A DNA stretch of 64,000 nucleotides from an uncultured Roseburia sp. (GTDB lineage: Bacteria; Bacillota; Clostridia; Lachnospirales; Lachnospiraceae), in NCBI GenBank assembly GCA_947644305.1, contig CANRYS010000001.1, forward strand, positions 248,001 to 312,000, in the 5' to 3' direction. The first letter of the stretch is position 1. Every line of letters starts with the position of its first letter. Positions 518-45,492 of the stretch are shown one piece after another. The translations under genes were made by a program, and so were the position numbers. The notes below the pieces were generated by a model, which did no database searches, was not told the DNA's origin, and saw nothing but the letters and a program-made list of their open reading frames with translations.

Positions 518-1462
518 CTATGAAATCTGTTCTCTCCAATAATTCAGCGTATCTTCCAGTGTTTTCTCCAGACGAATCTTGCGCGTCCAGTCCGTGTGCT
601 CTGTGATCTTAGATATATCTGCTGAGATGATCGGCACATCGATGGGCCTCAGTCGTTCCGCCTCTACCTGCACCCGGATCTCCTGTCCAGAGAGAGCGAT
701 GATCTGATCCAGGATCTCCTGGATCGAATATGCATTTCCCGCTCCCACGTTGTAGGTCTCACCAGCATGCCCCTGACGTACCAGGCACTCATAGGCGGCG
801 ATCACATCTCTCACATCTGTAAAATCCCTTTTGGCTTTCAGATTTCCCACATGGATCACCGGTTCCCGCAATCCCTTTTCCACTTCCACTACCTGTTTGC
901 AAAAATCCGACACCACAAACTGGGGAGACTGTCTCGGTCCCACATGGTTAAAGGCGCGGACCATTACAAGATTGAGTTGGTATGCCCTGGCATAGATCGC
1001 CGCCAACATATTCTGACAACCCTTGGTGGCAGCATAAATATTTCCGGGACGCAAAACCGTATCCTCAGTGATCGGGACCTCATCGGGATTGACATACCCA
1101 TATTCCTCTCCGGAACCGATCAAAAGTACTCTTCCTGTATATTTTCTTTCCTTTAGCACATCCAGCAGATTCAAAGTCCCCTTAATGTTTACATCCACCG
1201 TAAGCTGCGGATTGGACCAGGATAGAGCCACGGAACTCTGGGCCGCAAGGTGGAAAATATAATCCGGGGCACACTTTGCCAACACCTGCTCCACCTCTTC
1301 TTTCACCAGAAGATCCATGTCCAATATGTTAGCGTTCGCGTCCTCCAGCACTTCCTGTTTCATTTTTGTTATACTAACCTTATATCCACATTCCCCGCTC
1401 AGATATTCTGCCAGATACCTCCCCACAAAACCGGCGCCGCCGATAATCAATACTTTTTTCAT
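518..1462 (-). CDS. rmd: GDP-6-deoxy-D-mannose reductase (Rmd), GDP-D-rhamnose synthesis
   Basis: A 314-residue extended SDR. The Rossmann motif GGAGFVG is at residues 8-14 and the catalytic Tyr143-x3-Lys147 (YAATK) with the GSGEEYG strand at 116-122. The segment FNHVGPRQSPQFVVSDF is typical of GDP-4-keto-6-deoxy-D-mannose reductases. It reduces the Gmd product at C4 to give GDP-D-rhamnose; gmd lies directly upstream. The ATG at 1462 was chosen because the Rossmann strand begins there (MKKVLIIGG) and GAGGG lies upstream. A longer frame from 1519 would add 19 residues that do not look like family sequence. GDP-L-fucose or GDP-6-deoxytalose reductases are alternatives, but the overall pattern favours Rmd. 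Confidence 0.85.
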   Translation of the reverse strand: MKKVLIIGGAGFVGRYLAEYLSGECGYKVSITKMKQEVLEDANANILDMDLLVKEEVEQVLAKCAPDYIFHLAAQSSVALSWSNPQLTVDVNIKGTLNLLDVLKERKYTGRVLLIGSGEEYGYVNPDEVPITEDTVLRPGNIYAATKGCQNMLAAIYARAYQLNLVMVRAFNHVGPRQSPQFVVSDFCKQVVEVEKGLREPVIHVGNLKAKRDFTDVRDVIAAYECLVRQGHAGETYNVGAGNAYSIQEILDQIIALSGQEIRVQVEAERLRPIDVPIISADISKITEHTDWTRKIRLEKTLEDTLNYWREQIS

Positions 1463-1487
1463 TGTTTCCCTCATTTCTACTGCTGTC

Positions 1488-1523
1488 CTAAGGCTCAGCT
1501 TTGCTGAGACTATGCGCATTCAT
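1488..1523 (-). other. Possible 11-codon leader ORF plus small hairpin upstream of rmd
   Basis: A short frame starts with ATG at 1523, eight bases downstream of GAGGG, and ends at a TAG at 1488. It covers a CTCAGC-AAA-GCTGAG hairpin just before the rmd ribosome site. It could be a leader peptide or chance; there is no independent support beyond the ribosome site and hairpin. Confidence 0.2.
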
Positions 1524-1655: not shown

Positions 1656-3796
<2,141 letters not shown>

Positions 3797-3858
3797 ACTC
3801 TTTTTCCTTTCTGAATGCTTTATATCCAACCGATGACACCATCGGCCAAAATTGTATC

Positions 3859-26828: not shown

Positions 26829-27467
26829 TTACCTTCCAACTGCATACATCTTACAGGGACGAATACACCCCCCCCCTATATCCGTATTTCCTTGTAGGTA
26901 ACATCCCGCCCCCACCAGTGTATAATCATGAACCATAATTCCATTTTTTAAGGTGCAGTTATTGCCAAAGAAACAATTACTATTTATTCTCACACTTCCC
27001 GCAACCGAACACGATATGGCGAAAAAATTAAAATCTTCCACCTGGGTATGATGGGCAACATGTGCACAGGGATAAAAAACGTTACCTGTTCCGATCCGTA
27101 CATGCTTTCCAATCGTAACATTTTCCAAAAAAATATTTCCTTCTCCGATTTGATCTGCCTGAATCAACGCTGTCGGATGACGATATCCGATAATTTCATA
27201 TCCCTTTTCTTTCAACTCCAGATACTTCTTCTGACGAATTGTATTCATTTTATGATAACCCAGAGCAAGTATTATATTATACTGCTCTGCCGGAACCTCC
27301 TGCTCCATATGTTCCGTAATATAAATCGGTTTTTCACAAAACATCTCCTGATCCGGCTTATATTTTTCATCAACCAGAAAACCTGCCACCGGAATGCCAT
27401 CCTCTTCCATGTATTCGGATAACAGTTCGGCGAACCGATTTATTCCAAAAATCAGTGTTTTTCTCAT
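26829..27467 (-). CDS. NeuD/PglD-family sugar O/N-acyltransferase with G9 tract near its end
   Basis: A left-handed beta-helix acyltransferase of 212 residues as read. The N-terminal Rossmann-like part (LIFGINRFAELLSEY) and the hexapeptide region from about residue 113 (IGEGNIFLENVTIGKHVRIGTGNVFYP, then HVAHHTQVED with the catalytic His) match NeuD/PglD. Near codon 200 a run of nine G residues (26868-26876 on the opposite strand) encodes Gly-Gly-Gly, after which the reading ends with an atypical tail. One fewer G would give a tail ending LEGKNSLDMI and a stop at 26807, much more like the family. It probably acetylates the 4-amino group of the WecE product. It overlaps the upstream GT2 stop (ATGA). 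Confidence 0.8.
   Translation of the reverse strand: MRKTLIFGINRFAELLSEYMEEDGIPVAGFLVDEKYKPDQEMFCEKPIYITEHMEQEVPAEQYNIILALGYHKMNTIRQKKYLELKEKGYEIIGYRHPTALIQADQIGEGNIFLENVTIGKHVRIGTGNVFYPCAHVAHHTQVEDFNFFAISCSVAGSVRINSNCFFGNNCTLKNGIMVHDYTLVGAGCYLQGNTDIGGGCIRPCKMYAVGR
26868..26876. repeat. Nine-base C/G homopolymer inside the NeuD-like gene
   Basis: Nine consecutive C residues on the plus strand (G9 in the coding strand) near the 3' end of the acyltransferase gene. A length change of one base switches the C-terminal reading frame, so it is either a slippage-prone phase-variable tract or a sequencing-type error. Confidence 0.9.
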
Positions 27468-28447: not shown

Positions 28448-29575
28448 TTATTTATAAAACTGTTTTACACATTCTGTAATCATTTCTATTTCATCTGAGT
28501 TTAAACCATAATACATCGGCAGACGCAGCAGCCTCTCGCTCTCTTTCGTCGTATACCTATCCTCTCCATGAAACCATCCAAAGCGTTTTCCAGCCTCAGA
28601 ACTATGTAGAGGAATATAGTGAAATACCGCGCCGATCTCATGTTCTTTCAGATACCGGATCAAATCTGTCCGCTCTTCTAAATCCCTTGTTTTGATATAA
28701 AACATATGGGCATTATGAACACAATACTCTGGAATAACAGGCAGCTCAATGCAGCCCTTCTCAGCTAGTGTGGATAGCTGATCCTGGTATGTATCCCAGC
28801 TACGCATCCTATCTTCATATATAATTTCCGCCGCCTCTAATTCTCCCCAGAGATATGCCGCGTTGAGCTCACTGGGTAAATAGGAAGAGCCCTGTTCCAC
28901 CCAGGAATACTTGTCAATCTCACCGCGGAAAAACTTACTGCGGTTTGTCCCCTTTTCACGGATGATCTCCGCTTTTTCTATATTTCCGGCATCGCGGATC
29001 AGAAGGGCGCCTCCTTCTCCCATGCTGATATTTTTCGTCTCATGAAAACTATAACATCCATAATCTCCGATCGTTCCCAGAATCTTTCCTTTATATGTGC
29101 TCATAATCCCCTGGGCCGCATCCTCGATCACAGCCAGTTGGTGCCTCTGTGCGATGTCCAAAATAGCATCCATCTCACAACTGACTCCCGCATAATGAAC
29201 CGGAACGATGGCCTTTGTTTTATTTGTAATAGCAGCTTCGATAAGACTCTCATCTATATTCATCGTATCGGGTCTAATATCGACGAACACTACCCTGGCA
29301 CCGCGAAGTACAAAGGCATTTGCCGTAGATACAAACGTATAAGAGGGCATAATCACCTCATCTCCTGGTCTTATATCCGCCAATATTGCCGCCATCTCTA
29401 TGGCATGGGTACAGGAAGTCGTCAAAAGGACCTTTTCCGACTTTGTAATCTTCTCCAGATAATCATTACACTTCTTTGTGAACTGCCCATCCCCACATAA
29501 TTTATGACAATTTACTGCTTCTTCTATATACTTAAGTTCTTTTCCAACAAAAGGTGGTTTATTAAATGGTATCAA
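28448..29575 (-). CDS. wecE: dTDP-4-amino-4,6-dideoxygalactose transaminase (WecE/RffA-like)
   Basis: A 375-residue DegT/DnrJ/EryC1-type PLP aminotransferase with very strong resemblance to E. coli WecE: the N-terminal MIPFNKPPFVG, KLCGDGQFT, GDEVIMPSYTFVSTANAFVLRGA, VPVHYAGVSCEMD, EDAAQG, and the PLP-lysine segment SFHETKNISMGEGGA (Lys near 181), then EIIREKGTNRS and HGEDRYTTKESERLLRLP. WecE aminates dTDP-4-keto-6-deoxyglucose to dTDP-Fuc4N; the dTDP-sugar enzymes RmlA/RmlB are not in the window. It heads a module with GT2, acyltransferase, ATP-grasp and flippase genes. TTG start at 29575 after GGAGGTTTTACA, and a strong promoter upstream. Confidence 0.92.
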   Translation of the reverse strand: MIPFNKPPFVGKELKYIEEAVNCHKLCGDGQFTKKCNDYLEKITKSEKVLLTTSCTHAIEMAAILADIRPGDEVIMPSYTFVSTANAFVLRGARVVFVDIRPDTMNIDESLIEAAITNKTKAIVPVHYAGVSCEMDAILDIAQRHQLAVIEDAAQGIMSTYKGKILGTIGDYGCYSFHETKNISMGEGGALLIRDAGNIEKAEIIREKGTNRSKFFRGEIDKYSWVEQGSSYLPSELNAAYLWGELEAAEIIYEDRMRSWDTYQDQLSTLAEKGCIELPVIPEYCVHNAHMFYIKTRDLEERTDLIRYLKEHEIGAVFHYIPLHSSEAGKRFGWFHGEDRYTTKESERLLRLPMYYGLNSDEIEMITECVKQFYK

Positions 29576-32432: not shown

Positions 32433-33605
32433 CTATTTGTTGCAAATAAATTCTGAAATCTGATCCACGATCTTCTGTCTGGAATACTCATCCTGAATAT
32501 ATTTTTTTGCTCTTTTAGATATCAATCCCGCTCTTTTCGGATTCGAAATCATCTCTGTTAATACCCTCTTTAATTCCTCATCCAGATGATCCAGGGAAAT
32601 TTTTATCGCACATTCGTCTGGGATTTCTGAAAACCATCCACCTTCATTTATCACACTGACTTTTCCTTTTTCCATGATCTGAAGCATGGTTCTGGATGTC
32701 TCTCCCATAGATGGATTTCTCAGATTAAATATAAGATCCGAATGTTCAAGAAAACCATTGAACTCCTCAGCATCCACATAACCTGTTTTGATTATGACCT
32801 TTCCATCTATATATTGATCTACATAATTTCCCTCACCTACCATCACATAACATAGTTTAGAAATACCATTTTTATACAGTTGCTGTACCGCTTTGCACAC
32901 TTCATGATTCAGTTTGGTTGACCCAATATTCCCTAACGAAGCCACAACATACGCATCCTGCGGAATGTTATATTTCTCAAATAATGCTGATTTCGTAATG
33001 AGGGAATCTTCTCCCTTAAAAAATTGATTAATTTTAGCAAGGCGTTGCTTTTCTACAAGCTTTGTCTCCAGTATTTTATGATAGGCATAAAATGAATGCA
33101 CCATAATCTTGTTGTCTGATTTCAACAATTCATTATTTAAGGACAATCTTTCTGCCATGTGTTTCTGTGCCAGCAGATCGGGCCCATTTTCTTTCACCGC
33201 ATGCTTTAACTTCAAAAATTCCTCTAATCCTTCATGCTCATAAGTCTTAGAATACAATAAACCTCTCTTCTGATAATATCCAATAAACAAATAGTATAAT
33301 ACCATATCATGAAGAATAACCATCCCTGGATATTTAAGACAGCACTCATAAATATAATCATGATATTCTGGATTGTTGCCTATGTTATAGATCTTATAAT
33401 CGTAGAGAGAAAAATCTATTTTATCTCTTCCGTGCCTTACTACTTTAAAATTCTTAATTATTTCATTAGAAATGTTATAATCATCCGTGTACAAAGTAAT
33501 ATCAAATTTCTTTGCTAAGTCTTGGATCAGTTCTTCTGAATAATCCGATATTCCACTTTTCATAGGTGAAAATGGACTCGCATATAATAATGATGGCCTT
33601 CCCAT
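32433..33605 (-). CDS. GT4 glycosyltransferase
   Basis: A 390-residue GT-B fold enzyme. The N-terminal domain starts LLYASPFSPMKSGISDYSEELI (about 6-27), as in GT4 enzymes that grip the acceptor. The C-terminal domain holds VVASLGNIGSTKLNH near 218 and NPSMGETSRTMLQIMEKGKVSV near 297-318, equivalent to the donor-binding E-x7-E region in altered form. It follows a GT4 gene (11 bases) and precedes the YfhO-like gene (15 bases). It is AT-richer than the rfb and man genes of the locus. Donor unknown; GDP-rhamnose or GDP-mannose are candidates. Confidence 0.8.
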   Translation of the reverse strand: MGRPSLLYASPFSPMKSGISDYSEELIQDLAKKFDITLYTDDYNISNEIIKNFKVVRHGRDKIDFSLYDYKIYNIGNNPEYHDYIYECCLKYPGMVILHDMVLYYLFIGYYQKRGLLYSKTYEHEGLEEFLKLKHAVKENGPDLLAQKHMAERLSLNNELLKSDNKIMVHSFYAYHKILETKLVEKQRLAKINQFFKGEDSLITKSALFEKYNIPQDAYVVASLGNIGSTKLNHEVCKAVQQLYKNGISKLCYVMVGEGNYVDQYIDGKVIIKTGYVDAEEFNGFLEHSDLIFNLRNPSMGETSRTMLQIMEKGKVSVINEGGWFSEIPDECAIKISLDHLDEELKRVLTEMISNPKRAGLISKRAKKYIQDEYSRQKIVDQISEFICNK

Positions 33606-33616: not shown

Positions 33617-34660
33617 TTAGTTCAATAATTTATCAATGACATAGTCCCAATCCATATGCTTATCGATCAGAGACTTTTTACCAGCACGTCCCATTTCTTC
33701 TGCCTTTTGACGATTTTCATACCAGTAATCTATTTTTTCTGCCACGATCCTGGCATCTGCCTCAATTACAAAACCATTCCTGCCATCCTCTACAAATTCC
33801 AGAGGCCCCCCAGCATCCTGATGCACGATTACCGGTTTTTCTGAGAAAAATCCTTCCAGAGTAATATATCCATAATCCTCATCATAGGCGCCAAAATATA
33901 CCCCAAGGCAATTTGCATAGTAATCCATCTTTTCCTGTTCTGAAATAAATCCAGCAAGGGTCACCCGATCTTTCAACTTATACTTCTTGATAAGATCATG
34001 GATGTATCTTAACTCCGTTTCACTTCCTGAACCGGCTAGAACCACCTTCACGTCTGTCTTAAAATATCTGGCCGCCTCCACTAACAATCTCTGTCTTTTA
34101 ATTGAATCGATGCGGCTGGGATAAAATACATAATCCCCATAACTGTCACAATGCAGCTTTTCATAATTCAATGGCGGATGGTATATTGTTTCGGAATCAA
34201 TCCCACAAAATTTCTTAAGTCGTTTCGATGTATTATGTGCAATGGTAAAAACACTCTTCGCCTCTGAAATGTACTGCTTATCACACTCACAGATAAATTC
34301 CCGGATCTTATCCCCCTTGGGAAAGTGATGCAGATCACCAAATTCTGTTTCCCACAGATCATACGCTTGTCTGTGCTGGTGCATAAGCCAGAGTACCTTA
34401 TTCTCATGTTTCACATAATAAGCCGGAAATTTCATAGCGATAACCCTGTCAATCTTTTCTCCGTTGACTTCTGTTAAATCCATCAGTCTCCCCATCATCA
34501 TACAGTTCATCAACGTCTCTCCTGGATACCACTTAAACGGAATGGTGACAACATCCACCTGATGCCCGCGTTTTACCAATTGTTCCCTTAGCATCTCCGT
34601 AAGGATCTCCGCGCCTCCCCGAATAAAAGGCACCTGAACCGTCGCAATCGCAATTTTCAT
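33617..34660 (-). CDS. GT4 glycosyltransferase
   Basis: A 347-residue GT-B enzyme of the GT4 family. The N-terminal TVQVPFIRGGAEILTEMLREQL (residues 7-28) has the glycine-rich acceptor loop, YPSRIDSIKRQRLLVEAARYF near 180 is the nucleotide-binding K-R-Q element, and GAYDEDYGYITLEGFFSEKPVIV near 263-285 has the donor E-x7-E motif (EDYGYITLE). Its start overlaps the stop of the preceding GT4 gene by four bases. It probably adds a backbone or adaptor sugar on the cytoplasmic side before ABC export. AAAGGAG precedes the ATG. Confidence 0.87.
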   Translation of the reverse strand: MKIAIATVQVPFIRGGAEILTEMLREQLVKRGHQVDVVTIPFKWYPGETLMNCMMMGRLMDLTEVNGEKIDRVIAMKFPAYYVKHENKVLWLMHQHRQAYDLWETEFGDLHHFPKGDKIREFICECDKQYISEAKSVFTIAHNTSKRLKKFCGIDSETIYHPPLNYEKLHCDSYGDYVFYPSRIDSIKRQRLLVEAARYFKTDVKVVLAGSGSETELRYIHDLIKKYKLKDRVTLAGFISEQEKMDYYANCLGVYFGAYDEDYGYITLEGFFSEKPVIVHQDAGGPLEFVEDGRNGFVIEADARIVAEKIDYWYENRQKAEEMGRAGKKSLIDKHMDWDYVIDKLLN

Positions 34661-35762: not shown

Positions 35763-37571
35763 CTATTTCTTTGCAATGATCGCATAATCCTGGCTGCCAA
35801 ATAGCAAGTCAGCAACGCGCTCCATGGCCAAATCAAATTCGTGTGCTCTCCCCTCCCCATGTTCTGCAATTTTCGGAATATCATATGGAAGCCGACTGCT
35901 CTCTGTAAACAGGACCTGTACCTGTGAAAATCCCTGTTTCTCGGTAATATACTGTAAGGTTTTGGGATGAATCGGCCTGTTATGAGAGGGATCCATATAA
36001 AAAGATTCTGTGTAAATCGCCAATGAGGTGGGATTTGGCGTCTCCATGATCAGATATCCCCCCACTTCCAATTTGTCATAAGCGATGCGGCACAGTTCTA
36101 TGGTCTGTGCTGTGCTGAGATGTTCTACCACCTGGCCGAGAAATATACCATCAACCCTTTCCTGTCCCTTTAAATAAGCAAGAGCGTCCCCTTGTTCCAC
36201 CGGAAGATTTTGCAGCTTACAATACTCCACATAAGGAGAATATAAATCTACACCTTTTACTCCGATCCCATTCTCAATCAGCAGTTCAACAAACTCTCCT
36301 CTTCCGCACCCAAGATCCAACACGTTCGTGCAATTTTTAAAATATGGAAGATATATCTCCTGTACCTGTTTTACATGTTCCCTGCTGCCGCGAAACCGAT
36401 TTTCAAAGTCAAAATAATCGATAGAACGATATGGGTCTGACTCCGAAACTACTGTGGTCATACCCTCATGCTTCTCCACGTTGTCTTCCTTCTTTTCACA
36501 CCTTTCTACCAGTTGCATTTGCTTTATCTCTGACTTCAGATTACTAAATGCGACAGAAAAATTCTCAAGAGATTTCTTCTGCTGTTCAAAATCTCCTGTC
36601 AGGGCAGACTCGTGTTTCTTAATCAGCACATTGTTATTTCTAATATTCTCTTCGAGATTTTCCACCCGTCCCGGCATATCTCCCATGTGTTCTATTCTCA
36701 TAGACAGATTTTCTAACTGCTTCACCCTATGATTAGTCAGGCTTTCTAACTGCTCTAATCTTCTTGACTGAGTTACTAACTTTTCTACTCTCCCCTCTGC
36801 CAGCTCCTCTAATGCCTGTACCCTCCCTGACAGATTTTCCAAAGCCTTTACCCGGTCAGTCAAATTTTCCAGTCCCTGCATCTTCTCTTGCAATTTCATA
36901 TTCCAGCAGATCATGGAGTTCATCGTCCGGTTGATACAAAAGAAATGATAGGTAAAGCGAAAAATTCTTCCAACGATGGGAATCCGAAACAGCTTTCTCA
37001 GACATCGGAGCATATAATACCTGACTTTACACCCCTTAACCACAATCCCCTTCCCGACAGCCTCATGGGAAAAAGAAAAGTCATAGGCCATCTCAATCCG
37101 GCTGACTTCCCTTAGCTGCAATCTCCTTAAATTATGCCGCAGGCCTTCTTTATCCGGCTCCCGCAATAGAATCTGCTCATAGCAGGCATGTACAAAATCT
37201 TCTCCCTCGAACTGGAGAATCCGCTTCATCTTTACCTGTTTATGCCCATTCATTTTCTTGTATATCTTTTTCAGGAAATCACGTAAATACAGCCGGTAGA
37301 AACGAAATCTTTTCATCCTTTCATCAATTGCCCTGCACTTATTGAACAACTCCCTGGAACTCTTTGGAGGCAGAGCGTATACCTTATATTCTCCCTTACC
37401 AATTGGCTGCAGACCGTCCGCTTCCCTCTCGATCTCCGAATAGATCGTGTGAATATTTATAGAATCATCAAACCAGTCCACATCCAGTGATTGCCTTGAT
37501 ACTGCCTCGTTTCTTTTCCCTTCAATTCTTTCATCCAAATTCATAACTTTTCCCCATTTTCTATCACTCAT
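35763..37571 (-). CDS. SAM methyltransferase with coiled coil, possible chain terminator/ruler
   Basis: A 602-residue, multi-part protein. Residues 124-172 (DFVHACYEQILLREPDKEGL and following) look like a DUF4214-type linker. Basic and hydrophobic residues 183-215 could bind the membrane. Residues 225-365 form a long coiled coil with repeated LENL-x-x-RV units, and residues 410-600 are a class I methyltransferase with VLDLGCGRGEF (417-427). It sits right after wzt, overlapping it by eight bases. In Gram-negative O9a systems WbdD, a coiled-coil chain-terminating methyltransferase beside a Wzt with a binding tail, sets chain length. The same job here is inference. An ATG at 37544 is an alternative start. 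Confidence 0.75.
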   Translation of the reverse strand: MSDRKWGKVMNLDERIEGKRNEAVSRQSLDVDWFDDSINIHTIYSEIEREADGLQPIGKGEYKVYALPPKSSRELFNKCRAIDERMKRFRFYRLYLRDFLKKIYKKMNGHKQVKMKRILQFEGEDFVHACYEQILLREPDKEGLRHNLRRLQLREVSRIEMAYDFSFSHEAVGKGIVVKGCKVRYYMLRCLRKLFRIPIVGRIFRFTYHFFCINRTMNSMICWNMKLQEKMQGLENLTDRVKALENLSGRVQALEELAEGRVEKLVTQSRRLEQLESLTNHRVKQLENLSMRIEHMGDMPGRVENLEENIRNNNVLIKKHESALTGDFEQQKKSLENFSVAFSNLKSEIKQMQLVERCEKKEDNVEKHEGMTTVVSESDPYRSIDYFDFENRFRGSREHVKQVQEIYLPYFKNCTNVLDLGCGRGEFVELLIENGIGVKGVDLYSPYVEYCKLQNLPVEQGDALAYLKGQERVDGIFLGQVVEHLSTAQTIELCRIAYDKLEVGGYLIMETPNPTSLAIYTESFYMDPSHNRPIHPKTLQYITEKQGFSQVQVLFTESSRLPYDIPKIAEHGEGRAHEFDLAMERVADLLFGSQDYAIIAKK

Positions 37572-38802
37572 TTGATATGCTCCACTGGTGTGCGATCCGT
37601 GCAACGCCGACATCTGATATATCCGAAAATACTTCAAAACGATAGGCTTCTCTAAAATAGTCCACCGCAATACCGATCTGCGATTCTATTGCAACATCCA
37701 GCAGGTATTGTCCTGGGATCAGGTTGAGAGAAGAAATTTCCACCTCAGCCACACCATCCCCGGCCAGCTTAAATTCCGGCAGCTTATCTATTCTGGTATT
37801 GGTGCCATAACACTGTACCCCGTCACTGCGGAAAAATCCAATACCAATAACCGCATCTTCCACCGTATTTTTTATCTCATACTCGATGGAGATCGTTACT
37901 TGCTCATCCGTTTTGATGACGGATCTTTCTTTTCCCTCTCTGTCCAAAATCATAACCCTTCTGATTCTGGCATCTCCATTTCCCCAGCGTTTTTCCTCTG
38001 TCACAGTGGGCTCTGTCTTCTCCTGAGGAGCCTCTTCTTTTTCCTTCTCCGCCCGCTCCTGACGCTTTTCTCCCATAAAATCCAAATATTCTGGATGTAC
38101 ATCCCTTGGCCTGCCCTGCCGTCGTATGTCCCCCTCATGAATCCAGATCGAGCGGTCACAGATCTGTTCGATTTGATCCATAGAATGAGATACGATCACA
38201 ATCGTAGTTCCCTGTCCTTTTATCTCCCGAAGCCGGTTAAAGCACTTCGCTTGAAAATTCACATCACCGACTGCTAAAATTTCGTCCACAAGCAATATAT
38301 CCGCATCCACATTTATGGCAACAGAAAAAGCCAGTCGCATATACATTCCAGATGAATAAGTACGCACTGGATTGTCAATAAAGTCCTGTAATTCAGAAAA
38401 ATTTATGATCGCTTCCATTCTCTCATCGATTTCCTTACGGGACAATCCGAAGATAGAGGCATTGATATATATATTTTCCCTTCCGCTCATATCCTCATGA
38501 AATCCTGCGCCAAGCTCGATCAGGCTCGATACCCGTCCAGACATCTTGATCTCTCCTGCGTCCGGATACATGATTCTGGTCAGCAATTTGAGTGTCGTGC
38601 TTTTACCGCAGCCATTGTGGCCGATCAAACCCACCGCCTCGCCCTTTTTCACCTGGAAGCTTATATCTTTTAATACGTTTCGTTCTTCATATCTTCTTCG
38701 TTTTTTAAACAACACCTTTTCCTTTAGTGTATTCCCTTTGTCCAAATACACTTTAAAGCTTTTGGTGACATGATTTACCTCAATGGCATTTTCCGGTTGC
38801 AT
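37564..38802 (-). CDS. wzt: Polysaccharide ABC exporter, ATPase with C-terminal glycan-binding domain
   Basis: A 412-residue Wzt/TagH-family ATPase. Walker A GHNGCGKST is at residues 61-69, signature YSSGM at 149-153, and Walker B DILLVDE at 168-174. A Glu/Lys-rich linker (about 235-265) leads to a C-terminal beta domain (about 275-405) of the Wzt_C type, which in E. coli O8/O9a binds the capped polysaccharide end before export. The family without this tail is usual in teichoic-acid exporters, so its presence fits a terminal modification by the adjacent methyltransferase. It overlaps the permease gene by one base. Confidence 0.93.
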   Translation of the reverse strand: MQPENAIEVNHVTKSFKVYLDKGNTLKEKVLFKKRRRYEERNVLKDISFQVKKGEAVGLIGHNGCGKSTTLKLLTRIMYPDAGEIKMSGRVSSLIELGAGFHEDMSGRENIYINASIFGLSRKEIDERMEAIINFSELQDFIDNPVRTYSSGMYMRLAFSVAINVDADILLVDEILAVGDVNFQAKCFNRLREIKGQGTTIVIVSHSMDQIEQICDRSIWIHEGDIRRQGRPRDVHPEYLDFMGEKRQERAEKEKEEAPQEKTEPTVTEEKRWGNGDARIRRVMILDREGKERSVIKTDEQVTISIEYEIKNTVEDAVIGIGFFRSDGVQCYGTNTRIDKLPEFKLAGDGVAEVEISSLNLIPGQYLLDVAIESQIGIAVDYFREAYRFEVFSDISDVGVARIAHQWSISNE

Positions 38803-39578
38803 TACATCTCCTCCGCAAAGTGTTTTTTCAGTCTTCCAAAGACCAGCCAGCCAATTACTAATAAAATCGTACTTAACACAAATCCATGAAGCAGATTTCC
38901 GATCTCAGGCAGGCGCTTATAATACAGAATGTCCCGGTATGCAACTATGATCGGAGTCATGGGATTGATGTTAAAAATAGAGCGCAGCTCTTCTGGCACC
39001 ATATCAATGGAGTACATCACCGGGGTCAAAAACTGCCATGCCATCGTTAGTATCACAAGAACATGTTCCAAATCCCGCAAATACACCGTCACCGCTGAGA
39101 CGATCATCGTTATACTGATGGCGAGAAAATATTCCGCCACGATCACAATGGGAAGATATAACAACGCCTGCAGGGAAATTCCCTTTCCGGATAAAAGCAA
39201 CACAGCAAATACAACGACAAAACTGAGAAGCATATTAACCATCTGACAGGTAACATGGGCGATAGGCAGCACCTCTCTTGGAAAATATATTTTTTTTACC
39301 ATTTCTTTCTGTGCCATCACACAACTGGCGCCGGCAGACACTGAAGTACTAAAAAACAGCCACGGAATCAATGCCACAAATAAGAACAAATAATAGTCCT
39401 CGATACCGGCTCGCATAATAATTGAAAATACTACCGTATACACACCTAACTGCAGCAGTGGATTCAAAAAGGTCCAGGCAAACCCTAATGCCGATCCCTT
39501 ATAGCGTCCTCTGAGATCTCTTCGAATCAGGCTGACAATCATGGTCCGATATTCATATATTTCCCTTAGAGTATTCAT
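38802..39578 (-). CDS. wzm: Polysaccharide ABC exporter permease
   Basis: A 258-residue ABC-2 type permease with six helices. The amphipathic N-terminus has the typical LIRRDLRGRYKGSALGFAWTFLNPLLQLGVYTVVF (residues 17-51), and WLFFSTSV and KIYFPREVLPI follow, all common to Wzm/TagG/RfbA permeases. With Wzt it exports an undecaprenyl-diphosphate-linked glycan made in the cytoplasm. It overlaps the GT4 gene upstream by four bases and the ATPase gene by one, so the three are coupled. Confidence 0.94.
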   Translation of the reverse strand: MNTLREIYEYRTMIVSLIRRDLRGRYKGSALGFAWTFLNPLLQLGVYTVVFSIIMRAGIEDYYLFLFVALIPWLFFSTSVSAGASCVMAQKEMVKKIYFPREVLPIAHVTCQMVNMLLSFVVVFAVLLLSGKGISLQALLYLPIVIVAEYFLAISITMIVSAVTVYLRDLEHVLVILTMAWQFLTPVMYSIDMVPEELRSIFNINPMTPIIVAYRDILYYKRLPEIGNLLHGFVLSTILLVIGWLVFGRLKKHFAEEM

Positions 39579-40765
39579 TCTCCTGTCCTCTCTTCATACA
39601 CTGGTTGTGCAGCCACTCTTTGGTACACTTCCCACAACTTCTCCACTGCGTTTGCCCAGGAATACTGCCCTGCTTGTTTGATGCCACGCTCCCGCAGTTG
39701 CTGTCTCAAGTCACTGTTGTCGCACAATTCTGCCATCTTCTGCGCCATCTGGTCCAAATCGTATGGGTCCACCTGGATAGCAGCCTCTCCCGTCACCTCT
39801 GTCAAAGAAGAGTTGTTCGAAGTCAGCACCGGCGTACCACACGCCATCGCCTCCAATGGCGGCATGCCAAAACCTTCATACAACGACGGAAAACAAAACA
39901 CAGAGGCGCCGCTCATCAATGGGGCTTTATCCTGCTCATCGACGTAACCGGTAAATATTACATGGTCTTTGAGGGAGATCTCCTCTGCTGTCTGGAAAAT
40001 CTCATCGTACATCCATCCCTTTCCGCCGGCAAGTACGAGTTTGGGGATTTCTTTTCCCGTTTCCTTTCTCCCCTCATAAAATTTTTTGTAGGCCAGGAGC
40101 AGTCCCCTCAAGTTCTTGCGGGGCTCCAATGTCCCCAAATATAAGAAATAACTTCCTTCTATACTATATTTTTTTTTCGCACCCTGAATCTGTTCTCTGC
40201 TATAGTTCAAATGATATTGAGTCGTGTCCACCCCATTCGGTACCACGGCTATTTTTTCAGACGCAATGTCATAATATTTCATCAGTTCCATTTTTGTAAA
40301 TTCTGAAACCGTCACGATGCCATCCGCCCGACGGAGAGAGCGTTTGAGATTTCGTTTTAACATGACCATAGTCCGGCCGCGCACCGTCTCTGGAAATTCC
40401 CGAAACGCCAGATCATGAACCGTCACTACTTTTTTTCCCCTCACGCCAAGGGGAATCACATAGTTGCAAAAATGTGTGATGTCGCGTTTCTCACGGAAAA
40501 ACCAAACATAAGGCAGCTCTACCACAAGAGAAAGCAGTTTAAACACCCGTTCTGAGATCCAGCCACACTCGCTGATCTTCACACCCTCTCCATAGTCTCG
40601 TATATACTGCCTTTTTTTTTCTCTTTCCCCGGAAGTAAAAATATCTGCCAGATACTCCTGCTGAGGGTGTAATGCTAAGAGGCCGCGAAGCAGCCCATCC
40701 TCACAATATCCAATCCCTGTTTTATTGTCGCTCAATAAAGGTTGTCCATAAAAAGCTATCTTCAA
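39575..40765 (-). CDS. GT4 glycosyltransferase
   Basis: A 396-residue GT-B enzyme with clear GT4 features: the N-terminal DNKTGIGYCEDGLLRGLL loop, VVTVHDLAFREFPET near 115, YLGTLEPRKNLRGLLLAY near 210 (nucleotide-binding), and FPSLYEGFGMPPLEAMACGTPVLTS near 289-311 with the donor E-x7-E motif. It is the mannosyl/rhamnosyl-transferase-like type common in D-rhamnan and mannan clusters. TTG start at 40765 overlaps the previous GT4 stop (TTGA). It is coupled to wzm downstream. Confidence 0.9.
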   Translation of the reverse strand: MKIAFYGQPLLSDNKTGIGYCEDGLLRGLLALHPQQEYLADIFTSGEREKKRQYIRDYGEGVKISECGWISERVFKLLSLVVELPYVWFFREKRDITHFCNYVIPLGVRGKKVVTVHDLAFREFPETVRGRTMVMLKRNLKRSLRRADGIVTVSEFTKMELMKYYDIASEKIAVVPNGVDTTQYHLNYSREQIQGAKKKYSIEGSYFLYLGTLEPRKNLRGLLLAYKKFYEGRKETGKEIPKLVLAGGKGWMYDEIFQTAEEISLKDHVIFTGYVDEQDKAPLMSGASVFCFPSLYEGFGMPPLEAMACGTPVLTSNNSSLTEVTGEAAIQVDPYDLDQMAQKMAELCDNSDLRQQLRERGIKQAGQYSWANAVEKLWEVYQRVAAQPVYEERTGE

Positions 40766-41937
40766 CGCGATTCGTTCCCTTCCATTAATTCCTCGTACAG
40801 TCTCTTTACATGTTCGAGCATTGTGTCAATGCGATACATCTTTTTCATTCTCTGCCTCGCCCGCACACCCATCTCTCTTCTCTCATCGAGATGTTCTGCC
40901 AGATACTGCATCGCCTGTGCAAGCTCACGGACATCCTCTGGCGGAACCGTCAGTCCCGTAATTTGATCCAAACTAACATATGGCACACCGCTGGGAAGTT
41001 TTGTATTAATGACCGGTTTGCCAAATGCCATCGCCTCAATCTGAACCAGGCCAAACGCCTCACTCCTCGCTACAGAGGGGAGCACGAATACATCACATGT
41101 ACCAAAAAATTCTGCCAGTTCCTCGTCTTCCACATTGGCATAAAATCTAACTCGTTCCTCAAGTCCCGCCTCGTGGACCATCTCCTTCATCTCCCGCTCC
41201 AGCGGTCCCGTTCCCACGATGTCAAGAAATAGGTTCGAACAACTGGCGGAGGCCTGAATAAATGCCCGGATCAGTTCATTACAACCTTTATAATATACGA
41301 GCCTGCCAACGAACAAAAAACGAACCGAATCTTTGGAACTATGCTGTCTTTCTGTTGATTCTTCCTGCGCGGCGATCCAACGGTCCGCGGTTTCCTCGAT
41401 CTGCCGCTCCACGCCAAAGGGTATGATCCTGCATTTGTCCGCGTAGGGTTTGAGAAACTCAGATCCATCGATATGCCCTTGTGTGGCTACTATGATACAG
41501 TCTGCACGCCGCAGAAGCCACTCCATAAGGGGACGGTAGATTTTTAACATTCGTTTCTGACGGACAATATCACTGTGCCACCAAAGCACGACCTTTCCTC
41601 GGTACCCCGATAAAAAACAGGCAAGATCCCCCAGGGGAAAGGGCATATGGATATGTAGGATATCCCTGTCCCTGGACATTTTGCGAAATTTCCACAAAAA
41701 CGACATGGACAAGGGAAGTGAAGAAAGCATGCCAATACTGGATGCTCTCGTCACCTCCACGCCATTGATCCGTTCTGTTATTGTCTTTCCCTTTTGCTGA
41801 CACACAAGCACCTTGCTGTCTGTGACATCGCAAAGCCCCTCTGCCAGTTGCTGCACTACCCTCTCAATACCGCCGGTAACAGGGTAATACAATTTATTTA
41901 CCTGTAAAATCCGAATGTTTTTTTTCGTCTCTGCCAA
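40762..41937 (-). CDS. GT4 glycosyltransferase
   Basis: A 391-residue GT-B enzyme. VNKLYYPVTGGIERVVQQLAEGL near 13-35 is the GT4 acceptor loop, FLFVGRLVYYKGCNELIRAF near 205-224 the nucleotide-binding element, and LPSVARSEAFGLVQIEAMAFGKPVIN near 284-309 the donor E-x7-E motif. It heads the exporter operon behind a clear promoter. The start is read as TTG at 41937; no ATG is in frame nearby and the ribosome site is weak, so the exact start is uncertain. Donor unknown, GDP-mannose/rhamnose plausible. Confidence 0.88.
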   Translation of the reverse strand: MAETKKNIRILQVNKLYYPVTGGIERVVQQLAEGLCDVTDSKVLVCQQKGKTITERINGVEVTRASSIGMLSSLPLSMSFLWKFRKMSRDRDILHIHMPFPLGDLACFLSGYRGKVVLWWHSDIVRQKRMLKIYRPLMEWLLRRADCIIVATQGHIDGSEFLKPYADKCRIIPFGVERQIEETADRWIAAQEESTERQHSSKDSVRFLFVGRLVYYKGCNELIRAFIQASASCSNLFLDIVGTGPLEREMKEMVHEAGLEERVRFYANVEDEELAEFFGTCDVFVLPSVARSEAFGLVQIEAMAFGKPVINTKLPSGVPYVSLDQITGLTVPPEDVRELAQAMQYLAEHLDERREMGVRARQRMKKMYRIDTMLEHVKRLYEELMEGNESR

Positions 41938-42027: not shown

Positions 42028-44106
42028 TCAGCCCTCTATGATCTTCCTGATCTGCCGGTACCCCTTCTCATAAAATTCTTTTTCATAGTGCACCATAAAG
42101 GCCCCCGAAACACACAGATCATCTGCATGATACTTTCTGGCGTTGTCAATCACATGGCAGTCCATGTGTTCTAGAAAATAATCCTGCCATTTGTTCAGAA
42201 ATTTCTTCTTTTTCAACAAAGTTTCCTTTTTATACCCCCGAATCGGCTGCATGGAACGCCTGAAATCAAGAAATCTAGTCTTTACGTCTGCTTTCACAAA
42301 GATGACATTTTTTCCATACCGCTCTTTGATAAACTGGATAAATACCCCGAACCGTTCCTTGATCTCCTCATCACTCAACACCGCGTCGATGGAAGTAATC
42401 TGGCACTCTTCCTTGATCTGCTTGTAAAATTTTAGTCCGCGAACCTCACTGTCCGCTGTCAGTATCCCCCCATGATATTCCACCACATCACAGATGAGAT
42501 CGTAAAAATCCAGAAGCAGCCACTGGGACTCGGTCTGCTGTAGCTGCTGGGGCAGATCCTTATGGAAGGCGCTTTTAATATATCCTACCCGCCAGCTACT
42601 GTTCTCAAATAATGAGAGATCCTCAAAATTATTGTCATCATAGGGGATCGGTTTATCAAAGGCAAATAGAAAACTATTCCGGTAAGCATATTTGCCGATC
42701 TTAAACCTGCCGTCGTCCTCATTCAATATCTCTCTCGTGATACAGGAGCCCCAAAGATCTACCAGAATCGGCTCGTAGTACCGGTTCATTGCTCTCATAC
42801 ATGCCTGAAGAGGATCTCTCGTCTCTCTCCCCTCCTCCCGGAGCAGATCCTTACATTTGGCTTTTTCTGTGATGCCGCCGCCAAGACCCAAAACAAGTTT
42901 TTTAAGAGCTCCCTGCTTTCCACTGCGGTATAAAAGAAGGGCGTGATAATAATTCCGGCAGTGGAACCGGTTGATCCACAATTCTCCTTCGATCACCCCA
43001 GCCTTTTCTATCTCCTTTTTCACCAGCTCCATAAAGGGATCTATCAGCTTTAAATGATATTCAAAGATCACTTCATAGTCCACACTGGAATCATAAATAT
43101 CCCCTGCCTCCACGGCCCGCACTGCCCTCAGGCATTCCCGCAGCAGAGTAGAAAACTTGAAATTATAATTCTCCAGAATCTCATCGATGCTCCCGTATCC
43201 GCCAGCTTGTATCGCCACCAAGTCGCTCTCATATTCTGCCAGGATTTCCCGGCTCATCTGTAGCACCAGATGATCCAGGAATACACTGTCATCCATAAAA
43301 AGCGCTACATTATTTTTGGCATACAGATTGTCATAATATTTGATAAACCGCCCCAGACGGATAAAATATTCCTGGTCCCGGAATACTCTCTGCTCCGGCT
43401 GCGTCCGAATGATCATGGAGATCAATCTTTTGGCATGATAATAAAAGGGCTTCTCGTAAGAAGACATGGTAAATCCCTTTTTACTGTTGAAATCCACATA
43501 ATAGTGGGAATAGATATCGATCACATAGGGATTCATTTTTTCCACAAAATAATCTTCCAACTGCTGGATGCGCTTATTATAGGCACGGCGGCTTTTTTTA
43601 GAAAGTTTTCTCACATGGGTATGGGTCACATACCAGAGAGGACAGCGAGATTTCACAAGAATGATGTGATTGGCATCAAAATATCTGCCCACCAGTTCCA
43701 GATACCGGTCCATATAGGGTTTCCAGTCAAATTCCTGATCCCGCATCACATCGATCTCTTCGATCTCCGCCTCGTGCTCCGCATAAAAAGTGCTTTGTTT
43801 AAATTTAGGGTTTTTTGTAAACACCTGATCTTTCCATCTACAGAGAGCATGTCCCGCCGTATAGCACATATCCACCACAAGAAATTCGGCCGGATTCTCT
43901 TCCAGTTCCACAGCCAGACGTTTTTCCAGATCCATCGTCAGAAGTGGGGATACTGGTTCTTGCAGAGTCACCGTCACTCCCTCCGGATTTCCCACCAGGG
44001 AGAGCAGAGAGATCCACAAACTGTCCCCAAATACCTGAAAGCGGTCATTCAACTCCATCTCATTGATATAAGACGAGCCATTTAATCGTATCGTAACCTT
44101 ATCCAT
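42028..44106 (-). CDS. Tandem DUF6270-like (SGNH-like) protein
   Basis: A 692-residue protein built from two related halves. The second (443-692) begins VDLWGSCITRE, the Gly-Ser-Cys motif of DUF6270, and ends with YFLEHMDCHVIDNARKYHADD and HYEKEFYEKGYRQIRKII. The first half has the matching YFVEKMNPYVIDIYSHYYVD and YEKPFYYHAKRLISMI but reads NGSSY in place of GSC. The fold is thought to be SGNH-like, often in surface-glycan clusters; its activity is not established, O-acylation or esterase chemistry being a guess. A middle part (about 290-440) is specific. It is the first gene of the locus, with its own promoter. ATG at 44106 after GAGGAAAAC. Confidence 0.7.
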   Translation of the reverse strand: MDKVTIRLNGSSYINEMELNDRFQVFGDSLWISLLSLVGNPEGVTVTLQEPVSPLLTMDLEKRLAVELEENPAEFLVVDMCYTAGHALCRWKDQVFTKNPKFKQSTFYAEHEAEIEEIDVMRDQEFDWKPYMDRYLELVGRYFDANHIILVKSRCPLWYVTHTHVRKLSKKSRRAYNKRIQQLEDYFVEKMNPYVIDIYSHYYVDFNSKKGFTMSSYEKPFYYHAKRLISMIIRTQPEQRVFRDQEYFIRLGRFIKYYDNLYAKNNVALFMDDSVFLDHLVLQMSREILAEYESDLVAIQAGGYGSIDEILENYNFKFSTLLRECLRAVRAVEAGDIYDSSVDYEVIFEYHLKLIDPFMELVKKEIEKAGVIEGELWINRFHCRNYYHALLLYRSGKQGALKKLVLGLGGGITEKAKCKDLLREEGRETRDPLQACMRAMNRYYEPILVDLWGSCITREILNEDDGRFKIGKYAYRNSFLFAFDKPIPYDDNNFEDLSLFENSSWRVGYIKSAFHKDLPQQLQQTESQWLLLDFYDLICDVVEYHGGILTADSEVRGLKFYKQIKEECQITSIDAVLSDEEIKERFGVFIQFIKERYGKNVIFVKADVKTRFLDFRRSMQPIRGYKKETLLKKKKFLNKWQDYFLEHMDCHVIDNARKYHADDLCVSGAFMVHYEKEFYEKGYRQIRKIIEG

Positions 44107-44159
44107 TGTTTTCCTCATTTCTACGCATACTTTCCGCGCAAAGCATAATAACTGACACA

Positions 44160-44189
44160 ATTATAACATACATTATTCCCCTACCGCAA
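44160..44189 (-). promoter_or_regulatory. Extended -10 promoter for the DUF6270-like gene
   Basis: TGTTATAAT with a perfect -10 (TATAAT at 44165-44160 on the minus strand) and a weak TTGCGG -35 at 44189-44184, 18 bases away. It lies in the divergent gap 44107-44272 and would drive the first gene of the polysaccharide locus. Confidence 0.5.
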
Positions 44190-44590: not shown

Positions 44591-44622
44591 TATTGATTCT
44601 ATTATGGCACGGGGTAAGGAAC

Positions 44623-45492
44623 ATGAACCATGTCAGAGAAATTGTAAGAGCAGATGCCGTTCACCAGAAAGGAATTCTGGGAAAAGGTAGTTGTATCGCC
44701 ATACTGGACAGTGGCATCTGCAGCCACCCGGACTTTGAAAACCGTGTCATCGGCTGGTATGACACCGTAAATGGAAGAACCAGACCCTATGACGATAATG
44801 GCCACGGAACCCATGTGGCGGGCATTGCCGCCGGTAGCGGGCAATCCAGCCGGGGAAACTTCTGCGGTATGGCGCCAGAAGCAAAGATCGTCTCCGTGAA
44901 GATCCTGAACCGGTATGGGGAGGGGATGATCCCCCATATCATCGCTGGCATCCGCTGGGTTATGAGAAACCGTTATCAATATAACATCAACATCATCAAT
45001 ATCTCCGTGGGCACTACCGATGGCAAACAGTTTGACGAAAATTCGGACTTTGTACAGACGGTAAATGAACTCTGGGACGCGGGACTGGTCGTCGTGGCTT
45101 CCGCCGGAAACAAGGGACCGGAACCCTATACCATCAGCGCTCCGGGAAACAGCCGAAAGATCATCACGGTAGGGTATTACAGTAAACACTCCAATTCTAG
45201 TGTGGGTCCCACCTCCCTCTGTATCAAAAAACCGGATGTCGTGACGCCAGGACACCAAGTCCAGAGCTGCAGCAATAAGTATCTCAACGGACAATCTTAC
45301 GAAAAAAAGAGCGGCACTTCCATGGCGACTCCAATCGTCAGTGGAAGCATCGCTCTGCTTCTTTCAAAATATCCTGATCTTACTCCGAAGGAAGTAAAAT
45401 TACGCCTGAAAAATAGCTGTACTGACCTTCATCTCCCCCACAGCAGCCAGGGCTGGGGGCTTTTAAATACCAAACGCTTTCTGGAAGTATAA
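44623..45492 (+). CDS. S8-family (subtilisin-like) serine protease, no signal peptide
   Basis: A 289-residue subtilase with the full triad: Asp in CIAILDSGICSHPDF (about residue 27), His in NGHGTHVAGIAAG (about 62), and Ser in KSGTSMATPIVSG (about 236), with the oxyanion Asn in ASAGNKGPEP. No signal peptide or long propeptide is present, so it is probably cytoplasmic or spore/mother-cell located, as with ISP-type enzymes. The ATG at 44623 follows GGTAAGGAA; a TTG ten codons earlier is less likely. The DUF3892 gene is just upstream and the glgP gene converges from the right. Confidence 0.93.
   Translation: MNHVREIVRADAVHQKGILGKGSCIAILDSGICSHPDFENRVIGWYDTVNGRTRPYDDNGHGTHVAGIAAGSGQSSRGNFCGMAPEAKIVSVKILNRYGEGMIPHIIAGIRWVMRNRYQYNINIINISVGTTDGKQFDENSDFVQTVNELWDAGLVVVASAGNKGPEPYTISAPGNSRKIITVGYYSKHSNSSVGPTSLCIKKPDVVTPGHQVQSCSNKYLNGQSYEKKSGTSMATPIVSGSIALLLSKYPDLTPKEVKLRLKNSCTDLHLPHSSQGWGLLNTKRFLEV

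Follow-up and report, generated by a model that had tools for sequence, protein, structure and literature searches.

Does this locus couple a surface-glycan exporter of a Gram-positive bacterium to an enzyme that caps the glycan and measures its length? A reading made from the sequence alone had proposed as much for a 64,000-nucleotide stretch of a contig from an uncultured Roseburia sp. (referred to here as the window), likening one gene product to the coiled-coil methyltransferase WbdD. In this Gram-positive host, the exporter adjoins a rod-shaped methyltransferase (here called MT), the probable agent of both chain capping and length control.

The exporter genes and their surroundings

The genes wzm, wzt, and MT lie in a row on the minus strand. 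These genes, the glycosyltransferase genes around them, and the nucleotide-sugar genes of the window are as follows:

38802..39578, minus strand: wzm, ABC-2 permease, 258 aa (Pfam ABC2_membrane, E 5.6e-18)
37564..38802, minus strand: wzt, ATPase with a C-terminal glycan-binding domain assigned by profile, 412 aa (ABC_tran at residues 44-175, Wzt_C at 270-402)
37597..37995, minus strand: Wzt_C domain, Wzt residues 270-402 (Pfam E 3.3e-30)
35763..37571, minus strand: MT, coiled-coil methyltransferase, ORF of 602 aa; likely start Met10 at 37544, giving 593 aa
34657..35745, minus strand: GTa, GT4 glycosyltransferase directly after MT (Pfam Glycos_transf_1)
33617..34660, minus strand: GTb, GT4 glycosyltransferase
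32433..33605, minus strand: GTc, GT4-like glycosyltransferase (Pfam match weak, at 22.0 bits with a cutoff of 26.4)
39575..40765, minus strand: GTd, GT4 glycosyltransferase
40762..41937, minus strand: GTe, GT4 glycosyltransferase
1656..2702, minus strand: GMD, GDP-mannose 4,6-dehydratase (TIGR01472, 487.5 bits against an NCBIfam cutoff of 415)
518..1519, minus strand: RMD-like SDR, no family above its cutoff; putative GDP-D-rhamnose step
2726..3829: ManC

The three genes are adjacent, as the sequence-only reading had stated, and wzm and wzt do overlap, by one base. The overlap claimed for MT and wzt (8 nt for the 602-aa ORF) is probably not real, and neither is the length of 602 residues. MT of the nearest relative (locus L030) begins at the counterpart of Met10, and GGGGAAAAGTT precedes the Met10 ATG (37544); Met10 is thus the better start, and MT is likely 593 aa long and does not reach wzt. 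The glycan-binding tail proposed for the ATPase was recovered by the Pfam scan, where Wzt_C (PF14524) scored 105.4 bits against a curated cutoff of 30.4, and a profile of 20 Wzts scored the domain at 78.5 bits. The wzt product is matched over residues 7-387 by PDB entry 8dku (E 2.9e-79), with the Wzt_C domain alone reaching E 0.0014 only. A Wzt with Wzt_C adjoins a coil-bearing candidate terminator, as in polymerase-terminator systems with a cap-binding Wzt.

Placing these genes beside GDP-D-rhamnose genes was loose, since GMD, the RMD-like gene, and ManC are about 32-33 kb or more away; in some relatives, unlike in the window, GMD is within the same locus. An ORF in L017 shares 58.9% identity with the RMD-like gene product. 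GTa also adjoins MT in L017, L020, L051, and L052, and in L030 as a 198-aa ORF. GTb, which could be the polymerase, has counterparts of 70.5% identity in L017 and 76.3% in L030.

Anatomy of MT

From the N terminus, MT consists of a head, DUF4214, a basic amphipathic segment, long helices whose period is 3.5 residues, and a class I SAM methyltransferase:

37221..37544, minus strand: head module, residues 10-117
37053..37205, minus strand: DUF4214, residues 123-173 (Pfam E 2.4e-6; pLDDT 71-91 by ten-residue blocks)
36906..37037, minus strand: basic amphipathic segment, residues 179-222, peak at 180-197; predicted membrane-proximal anchor
36480..36980, minus strand: coil, residues 198-364; helices at 198-295 and 302-364 with a break near Pro300
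35766..36422, minus strand: class I SAM methyltransferase domain, residues 384-602 (Pfam methyltransferase at 408-552)

The head is 49% identical to that of L030 over 101 aa and weakly similar to that of L017 (28%, z 4.4). The stretch described earlier as DUF4214-like is DUF4214 by Pfam. The domain lacks a counterpart in L030 and is present in 5/44 scanned MTs, the window's included; it is therefore inessential to the family. The basic segment noted earlier is amphipathic: 18 residues from position 180 exceed the rest of MT in hydrophobic moment (0.62, with a net charge of +6; a raw value without a shuffle control), and a stretch of the head from residue 72 comes near (0.60, net charge of +3). 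The basic segment's maximum 19-residue Kyte-Doolittle score, 0.95 versus 2.42 for wzm, is too low for a transmembrane helix.

The coiled coil of about 140 residues had been a prediction from the letters, and its periodicity is beyond chance. The power of the 3.5-residue period over residues 225-365 was 1.71, compared with a shuffle mean of 0.18, and 1/5000 shuffles was as high. The AlphaFold2 helices at 198-295 and 302-364 have low confidence (ten-residue pLDDT means of 40-66) in a model built on an alignment of 12 sequences only. The LENL..R[VI] repeats are real and lie at residues 234, 244, and 286. DNA tandem repeats, considered as a route to length change, were not found in the coil at the tool's threshold. 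The best PDB match of the methyltransferase domain is 3dli (E 8.4e-51), which Foldseek also retrieves (TM 0.89 of target). Thirteen residues are invariant across 44 aligned MTs, including D419, G421, and G423 of the SAM motif, and the Pfam scan found no glycosyltransferase domain in MT.

Co-occurrence with the exporter and the cap pocket

Among 398 genomes of the phylum, MT is present in 12, Wzt_C in 37, and both in 9 (Fisher p 3.6e-8; thresholds of E up to 1e-20 for MT and 1e-6 for Wzt_C). The three MT matches without Wzt_C fall in ORFs of 217, 200, and 1113 aa. Of 80 loci, 19 are from Bacillota, and in 17 of these, Wzt and Wzm are encoded on the same strand no more than 4.5 kb away; in the other two, Wzm is at about 5.1 kb (L044) or neither gene is on the 4.1-kb contig (L064). 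Distant Bacillota repeat the placement of MT beside the transporter, and so do archaea (L053, L054, L059). Against a universal rule, some coil-bearing MTs have no transporter nearby, and one (L018) lies beside a Wzt whose 253 aa leave no room for a binding domain. In total, in 57/94 MT loci, many of them acidobacterial, at least one of Wzt and Wzm is missing from the surrounding 4.5 kb; the count includes loci at contig ends. The neighbors scanned in two acidobacterial loci encode a penicillin-binding protein, UvrB, an aldolase, an oxidoreductase, and two unknowns.

In the Aquifex aeolicus Wzt (8dku), the closest solved Wzt, an Asn and an aromatic lid are described as holding the O-methyl cap, with His350 holding the C2 hydroxyl and Ala348 lining the methyl pocket (PMC9445017). 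By alignment, N335, A371, E373, and Y382 of the window's Wzt correspond to Aquifex N313, A348, H350, and W362 as named in that report (the chain numbers in our mapping are one ahead of the paper's), so that the Asn and the aromatic lid are conserved. The lid is present in 38/40 Wzts from MT loci versus 7/13 control Wzt_C domains (p 0.0016, a value that ignores kinship), and the Asn is frequent in the controls too (11/13). The window's Wzt has Glu in place of His350, as do 11 of the 40 other Wzts. The Ala348 position is Ala or Gly in 39/40 Wzts from MT loci versus 11/13 controls, which is not significant (p 0.15). As a lead only, this position is Thr in L145, which has no MT, and Ser in L150.

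Other candidate signals were set aside. Aquifex Tyr233 maps to L240, which is not conserved, and the neighboring Y239 is conserved but also in 13/13 controls and is thus uninformative on this system. Specific coevolution of the methyltransferase with the binding domain is weak (partial correlation of 0.17 over 37 loci, with 47/999 permutations as high); the value over 24 Bacillota is 0.35, without a permutation test.

Proposed membrane bases and mechanism, and known systems

A separate small ORF directly after MT encodes the basic anchor in 12 loci. L031 is split in this way, and Ruminococcus flavefaciens has a split locus. Within one methyltransferase clade of 13, the anchor is a separate ORF in ten and fused in L040, and the window and L030 carry a different head. 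The window's head is not detectably homologous to the relatives' anchor (the best hmmsearch domain, E 0.13, falls in the coil; hhalign gives a probability of 2.3%), although both proteins carry a similarly strong basic amphipathic stretch (moments of 0.62 for the window and 0.64 for the anchor module); we therefore call the two analogous, not homologous. The residues preceding the methyltransferase number 109-399 across the 37 MT loci that have both exporter genes. MTs of split loci have about 109-196, which is little for a ruler if the anchor ORF contributes no further length. Tentatively, and with the odds somewhat against it, these proteins may form a modular, inverted ruler, in which a C-terminal capping methyltransferase sits on a coil whose membrane base is fused, replaced (by the head, with or without DUF4214), or separate. 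If so, a separate base would pair with the methyltransferase's own coil, and a two-protein assembly would set chain length; bases and capping domains swapped at the coil would make length and cap changeable separately.

Our main reading, to which we assign a probability of roughly 0.55, is that MT is a chain terminator with a coil ruler and that an O-methyl cap licenses Wzm/Wzt export of an ABC-transporter-dependent glycan. It builds on the parts and their order, the coil periodicity, the genome association with Wzt_C, and the pocket conservation. The basic amphipathic segment, perhaps with the head, would sit at the inner membrane face beside the polymerizing glycosyltransferases, most likely GTa-GTc, and the coil, which at full extension would measure about 24 nm, would keep the methyltransferase off the membrane. 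A chain, possibly built from GDP-D-rhamnose or another GMD product, would be O-methylated at its nonreducing end only once it is long enough to reach the methyltransferase domain. Methylation would stop growth and create the cap for the Wzt_C domain, and Wzm/Wzt would export finished chains only, because Wzt_C would bind the cap.

The cap could instead license export without any ruler, with the coil serving as an oligomerization or docking surface and chain length left to chance as polymerase and terminator compete. Methylation by Geobacillus WsaE in vitro is reported to be independent of chain length (PMC2943079), and the part of MT before the methyltransferase varies widely in length, as would suit this explanation. 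A spacer, in turn, would be expected to keep its periodicity while its sequence diverges: the periodic stretch is found in 32/37 MT loci with Wzt and Wzm (no more than 2/40 shuffles as high), and the coils of the window and L030 are 31% identical, versus 70% for their methyltransferases. This argument is qualified by the 40/57 MT loci without a full nearby Wzt/Wzm pair that also have a periodic stretch, and we regard the absence of a ruler as doubtful rather than improbable.

It is less likely that MT decorates internal residues or another cell-wall substrate and is near wzt through operon packing. Coil-bearing MTs for which the fetched DNA shows no transporter would fit such an enzyme, as would L145, which retains a 61% identical Wzt and the anchor ORF without MT (its genome, G052, has no MT match). 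The strong genome co-occurrence with Wzt_C argues against it, as does the adjacency repeated in distant Bacillota and archaea; moreover, in 4/13 fetched Wzt_C loci without MT, another, methyltransferase-first protein directly follows wzt (L141, L143, L144, L148). L145 also speaks for the proposal that MT chiefly gathers glycosyltransferases at the membrane, with methylation secondary, in that the locus has no MT match and still retains the anchor module, with wzt on one side and a GTa-like gene on the other. The invariance of the SAM-motif residues in the 44 aligned MTs makes a mainly scaffolding role very improbable.

WbdD is a trimer that recruits the polymerase and whose coil length sets chain length; its O9a type has a kinase domain, and its O8 type does not. 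MT probably acts in the manner of WbdD, but its identity as a WbdD is not supported. The working likeness suggested by the sequence-only reading has support, with the catalytic domain and the basic amphipathic segment at opposite ends of the coil, a binding-domain Wzt in synteny, and a conserved cap pocket. Against the identity, the order is reversed, the methyltransferase is closest to 3dli, DUF4214 is inserted, and no kinase family was found with Pfam or NCBIfam profiles (E up to 0.1). No match named WbdD was present among 16 PDB sequences (E up to 1) or the best 50 of 1852 Foldseek matches. As described for E. coli O8/O9a and Klebsiella O5/O3, WbdD shares with MT a methyltransferase joined to a long coil, a binding-domain Wzt, and a membrane-side amphipathic segment at the other coil end, which for MT is a prediction only. 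Its export is reported to be coupled to the cap (PMC3482155, PMC5082667, PMC11231755). Its catalytic domains are described as N-terminal and its coil as C-terminal (PMC3482155), giving the order methyltransferase(-kinase)-coil-membrane region, whereas MT has head-anchor-coil-methyltransferase. The Klebsiella O4, O7, and O12 coil terminators are depicted with the catalytic terminator at the distal coil end, like MT, but with the terminating part N-terminal of the coil, unlike MT (PMC11231755).

The Aquifex Wzm/Wzt glycan is reported to carry a 3-O-methyl-D-rhamnose/mannose cap, and the word methyltransferase is absent from the main text of that paper (PMC9445017). A Firmicute with a capped, Wzm/Wzt-exported glycan is by itself no novelty, because Geobacillus WsaE and Wzt have been described: the S-layer rhamnan of the likewise Gram-positive G. 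stearothermophilus has a terminal O-methyl cap, its Wzm/Wzt export is predicted, and its wzm, wzt, and wsaE genes overlap (PMC2943079). Unlike MT, WsaE carries its methyltransferase at the N terminus, in fusion with two glycosyltransferase domains, with no coil mentioned in the sections of that report cited here (PMC2943079). Coil terminators and cap binding by Wzt are thus known logic (PMC11231755, PMC5082667, PMC9445017); a coil-first terminator was not described in the open-license literature searched. Under our main reading, surface glycans in several Clostridia should carry a terminal O-methyl sugar. Glycan-length coil rulers have so far been worked out in Gram-negative O antigens, and an inverted Bacillota version, with parts re-partnered or split between species, would supply natural variants for testing the ruler idea.

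Architecture of the wzm, wzt, and methyltransferase row

All genes named as part of the glycan system are carried on the minus strand. They include the ABC exporter genes wzm and wzt and the gene for the coiled-coil methyltransferase (MT), with the following features:

38802-39578, minus strand: wzm, permease, 258 aa
37564-38802, minus strand: wzt, ATPase domain plus Wzt_C domain, 412 aa
Residues 270-402 of Wzt, minus strand: C-terminal glycan-binding domain, Wzt_C (E = 3.3e-30)
35763-37571, minus strand: MT ORF, 602 aa from the first ATG
MT residues 10-117: head
MT residues 123-173: DUF4214 (pLDDT 71 to 91 by blocks)
MT from residue 180: basic amphipathic stretch (hydrophobic moment 0.62, net +6)
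MT residues 384-602: methyltransferase domain

The sequence-only reading described the three genes as adjacent and overlapping. They are adjacent, and wzm and wzt have one base in common, but the 8-nt overlap of MT with wzt, counted from the first ATG, probably does not exist. An in-frame ATG at 37544 (Met10) is preceded by GGGGAAAAGTT, and the MT of L030, a Eubacterium MAG locus and the nearest among the matches listed, begins at the counterpart of Met10; thus, the MT gene probably encodes 593 aa and starts after a short gap behind wzt. The glycan-binding tail proposed for wzt was recovered as the Wzt_C match. Among solved structures, the full-length Aquifex Wzt (8dku) matches the window Wzt best (E = 2.9e-79); with the Wzt_C domain alone as query, it is reached at just E = 0.0014.

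From the N to the C terminus, MT consists of the head, DUF4214, the basic amphipathic stretch, the coil, and the methyltransferase domain. The stretch from residue 180 has the top hydrophobic moment within MT, with a hydrophobicity too low for a transmembrane helix; a head stretch from residue 72 is nearly as amphipathic (moment 0.60, net +3). The predicted coiled coil and its LENL repeats were both confirmed: power at 3.5 residues was 1.71 versus a shuffle mean of 0.18 (1/5000 shuffles as high), and the motif LENL..R[VI] occurs at 234, 244, and 286. AlphaFold2, supplied with 12 sequences, placed helices at 198-295 and 302-364 with low confidence, which in this model would sum to ∼24 nm (0.148 nm per residue), compared with the about 20 nm reported for the E. 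coli terminator WbdD in the available text of PMC5082667. The mean pLDDT was 66.3 overall and exceeded 90 in 12 of the 23 ten-residue blocks of the methyltransferase domain, which is of the type of the solved Archaeoglobus protein 3dli (phmmer E = 8.4e-51; Foldseek E = 4.7e-25, TM 0.89 of target).

Elsewhere in the window, the ranges 12536-15784, 19597-20538, and 21615-23432 hold RfbH, CDP-glucose 4,6-dehydratase, and glucose-1-phosphate cytidylyltransferase, all scoring above NCBIfam cut-offs, with an SDR and a ThDP enzyme resembling acetolactate synthase nearby. Judged from its genes, this group is a CDP-3,6-dideoxyhexose pathway, which, we assume by analogy with YerE, perhaps leads to a branched yersiniose-like sugar. 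Two further regions (4838-11532 and 15804-19562) encode a GT2, a GtrA-family protein, a DUF6311 protein, and four more large ORFs with no Pfam match (membrane-spanning by eye); as a group, these could attach side sugars on the outside of the cell once the chain has been exported. A sugar aminotransferase above the WecE cut-off (28448-29575) and a nearby short acyltransferase-like ORF (26829-27491, by eye) may possibly yield a dTDP-Fuc4N-type sugar. On the plus strand, upstream of all the glycan genes, two ORFs (44593-45492 and 50486-52201) bear the subtilase-like motifs GHGTHVAG and GTSMATP (by eye).

Distribution of MT and co-occurrence with Wzt_C

The window's genome, which was included in each count, has one MT copy. 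At E values up to 1e-20, MT was rare, being found in 7/299 genomes of the family, 4/295 of the order, and 12/398 of the phylum. In the phylum set (one and the same draw of 398 genomes, to judge from the handles given in the tables), 37 genomes had Wzt_C and 9 had both (Fisher p = 3.6e-8); the three MT matches without Wzt_C lay in ORFs of 217, 1113, and 200 aa, and in G597 the MT and Wzt_C genes lie ∼9 kb apart. Thirteen of the 28 Wzt_C-positive, MT-negative genomes were fetched. In four of these (L141, L143, L144, and L148), a different, methyltransferase-first protein directly follows wzt; that of L144 is a single chain of methyltransferase, GT2, and GT4, much like the Geobacillus protein WsaE in domain make-up. 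Thus, methyltransferases beside a Wzt with a binding domain turn up repeatedly in Bacillota, where the coil-first protein of the window represents one of several solutions.

Named genomes were scanned with a 12-MT alignment, yielding at least 80 loci in a sample biased to close relatives, and 14 longer stretches around MT matches in other genomes brought the number examined to 94, some ended by the contig. Wzt and Wzm were found on the same strand, within 4.5 kb of MT, at 37/94 loci among the matches listed, and a same-strand GDP-mannose 4,6-dehydratase match was present at 12 of these 37 (weak in L054, 30% identity). Both exporter genes occur in 17 of the 19 Bacillota loci among the at least 80 listed; in L044, Wzm is slightly beyond 4.5 kb, and L064, a 4.1-kb contig, has neither. 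The usual Bacillota order among the matches listed, shared by the window, is Wzm, Wzt, MT, and then GT4 enzymes.

L030 repeats the complete row of the window. Identities are 91% for the DUF6270 protein, 70% and 61% for the glycosyltransferases GTe and GTd before wzm, 85% for Wzm, 71% for Wzt, 51% for MT (which lacks DUF4214 in L030), and 76%, 49%, and 43% for GTb, GTc, and GTa after MT, the last over a shorter 198-aa ORF. The DUF6270 protein (42028-44160), with two Pfam-matching stretches, is thus unusually conserved relative to the 43 to 85% of adjoining genes.

Many Acidobacterial MT loci, including those of coil-methyltransferases L049, L058, L077, and L106, had no Wzt or Wzm match in the DNA fetched. 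Of six neighboring ORFs scanned in L077 and L106, two had no match; the other four are a penicillin-binding protein, UvrB, an aldolase, and a GMC oxidoreductase. Among the matches listed, a periodic stretch (no more than 2/40 shuffles as high) was present in 32/37 loci with Wzt and Wzm versus 40/57 remaining loci, meaning that a coil is not in itself linked to export.

Exchange of N-terminal bases

In relatives that do not have the head of the window MT, the N terminus is often another basic module of ∼115 residues, the anchor (KKxxRKxxxxYxxPxxxxQxxFN). In ten split loci (L031-L039 and L057), little precedes the MT coil and the basic module is a separate 141-170 aa ORF next after MT, with a coil-like stretch at its end (by eye). 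L167 and L168 are also split, giving 12 loci with a separate anchor ORF; L169 and L170, whose contigs match those of L034 and L039 in length and which therefore repeat them, are outside this count. L145 (6750-8492), a same-family locus in a genome without an MT match, offers a natural contrast to the window: its Wzt is 61% identical, and a lone small anchor ORF lies between wzt and a GTa-like gene. By the tables, the anchor module occurs in 8/398 genomes, four of which supplied sequences to the anchor alignment; Wzt_C is present in seven of the eight and MT in six.

In a methyltransferase-domain tree of the window and 93/94 loci (L027 was too short), the window and L030 paired (100/100) within a 13-row clade (100/94) that also holds the ten split loci and L040, which has a fused anchor. 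The DUF4214 of the window MT has matches (z 12 to 16) in L017, L025, L081, and L083, which group in a separate clade where some of them have long branches. After L030, the best head matches among the 12 MTs compared were L017 (28%, z 4.4) and L083 (z 3.7); L017 also shares 58% (Wzt) and 70.5% (GTb) identity with the window proteins. The pairing of bases with capping domains has thus changed, and we infer that the coil is the joint for this exchange. Homology between the two base types could not be demonstrated.

Proposed capping and chain-length control; known systems

In the available text of PMC9445017, the Aquifex binding domain holds 3-O-methyl-mannose via Asn313 and His350, Trp362 stacks on the methyl, and Ala348 lines the methyl pocket. 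In the window Wzt, profile alignment places N335, E373, Y382, and A371 at the positions of Asn313, His350, Trp362, and Ala348. We compared 40 Wzts of >350 aa (best per MT locus, some not adjoining MT, window excluded) with 13 control Wzt_C sequences. Asn was present at 335 in 38/40 versus 11/13, an aromatic lid in 38/40 versus 7/13 (p = 0.0016, kinship ignored), and a small residue at 371 in 39/40 versus 11/13 (p = 0.15, kinship ignored); position 373 was His in 20 and Glu in 11 of the 40. The conserved residues make the window-type pocket compatible with a methyl cap, which it fits without proving one, and the cap sugar may perhaps differ from that of Aquifex. The lid is Arg in 6/13 controls (L140-L143, L148, and L152), L141, L143, and L148 being loci with a methyltransferase-first protein after wzt; as a guess, Arg might suit a phosphate-bearing cap. 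The L145 Wzt has Thr in place of the pocket Ala.

In characterized systems, as described in the available parts of PMC11231755, PMC5082667, and PMC3482155, a coil keeps the terminator off the polymerase so that long chains alone are capped, and export requires the cap. MT has the same geometry in reversed sequence order; its coil would hold the methyltransferase off the polymerase, and only long chains would be capped and then exported. We put the probability that MT acts as both cap and ruler at about 0.55. A cap applied without a ruler we consider less likely. The low confidence of the coil model weighs against the combined role. Coil-bearing MTs without a transporter nearby, the L018 Wzt of 253 aa with no room for a binding domain, the transporter and anchor ORF of L145 without MT, and weak tree-mirroring also speak against cap plus ruler; decoration and scaffold roles for MT jointly take the remaining, smaller share.

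A capped glycan in a Firmicute, proposed from the sequence, has a precedent: the available text of PMC2943079 describes a Geobacillus S-layer glycan that is O-methylated at its terminus and predicted to be exported by Wzm/Wzt, with overlap among the genes wzm, wzt, and wsaE, so a capped Gram-positive glycan is not new. As far as we found in the accessible portions of the literature searched, three features are new: the coil precedes the methyltransferase, the base contains DUF4214 or is a separate anchor, and modules have been exchanged.
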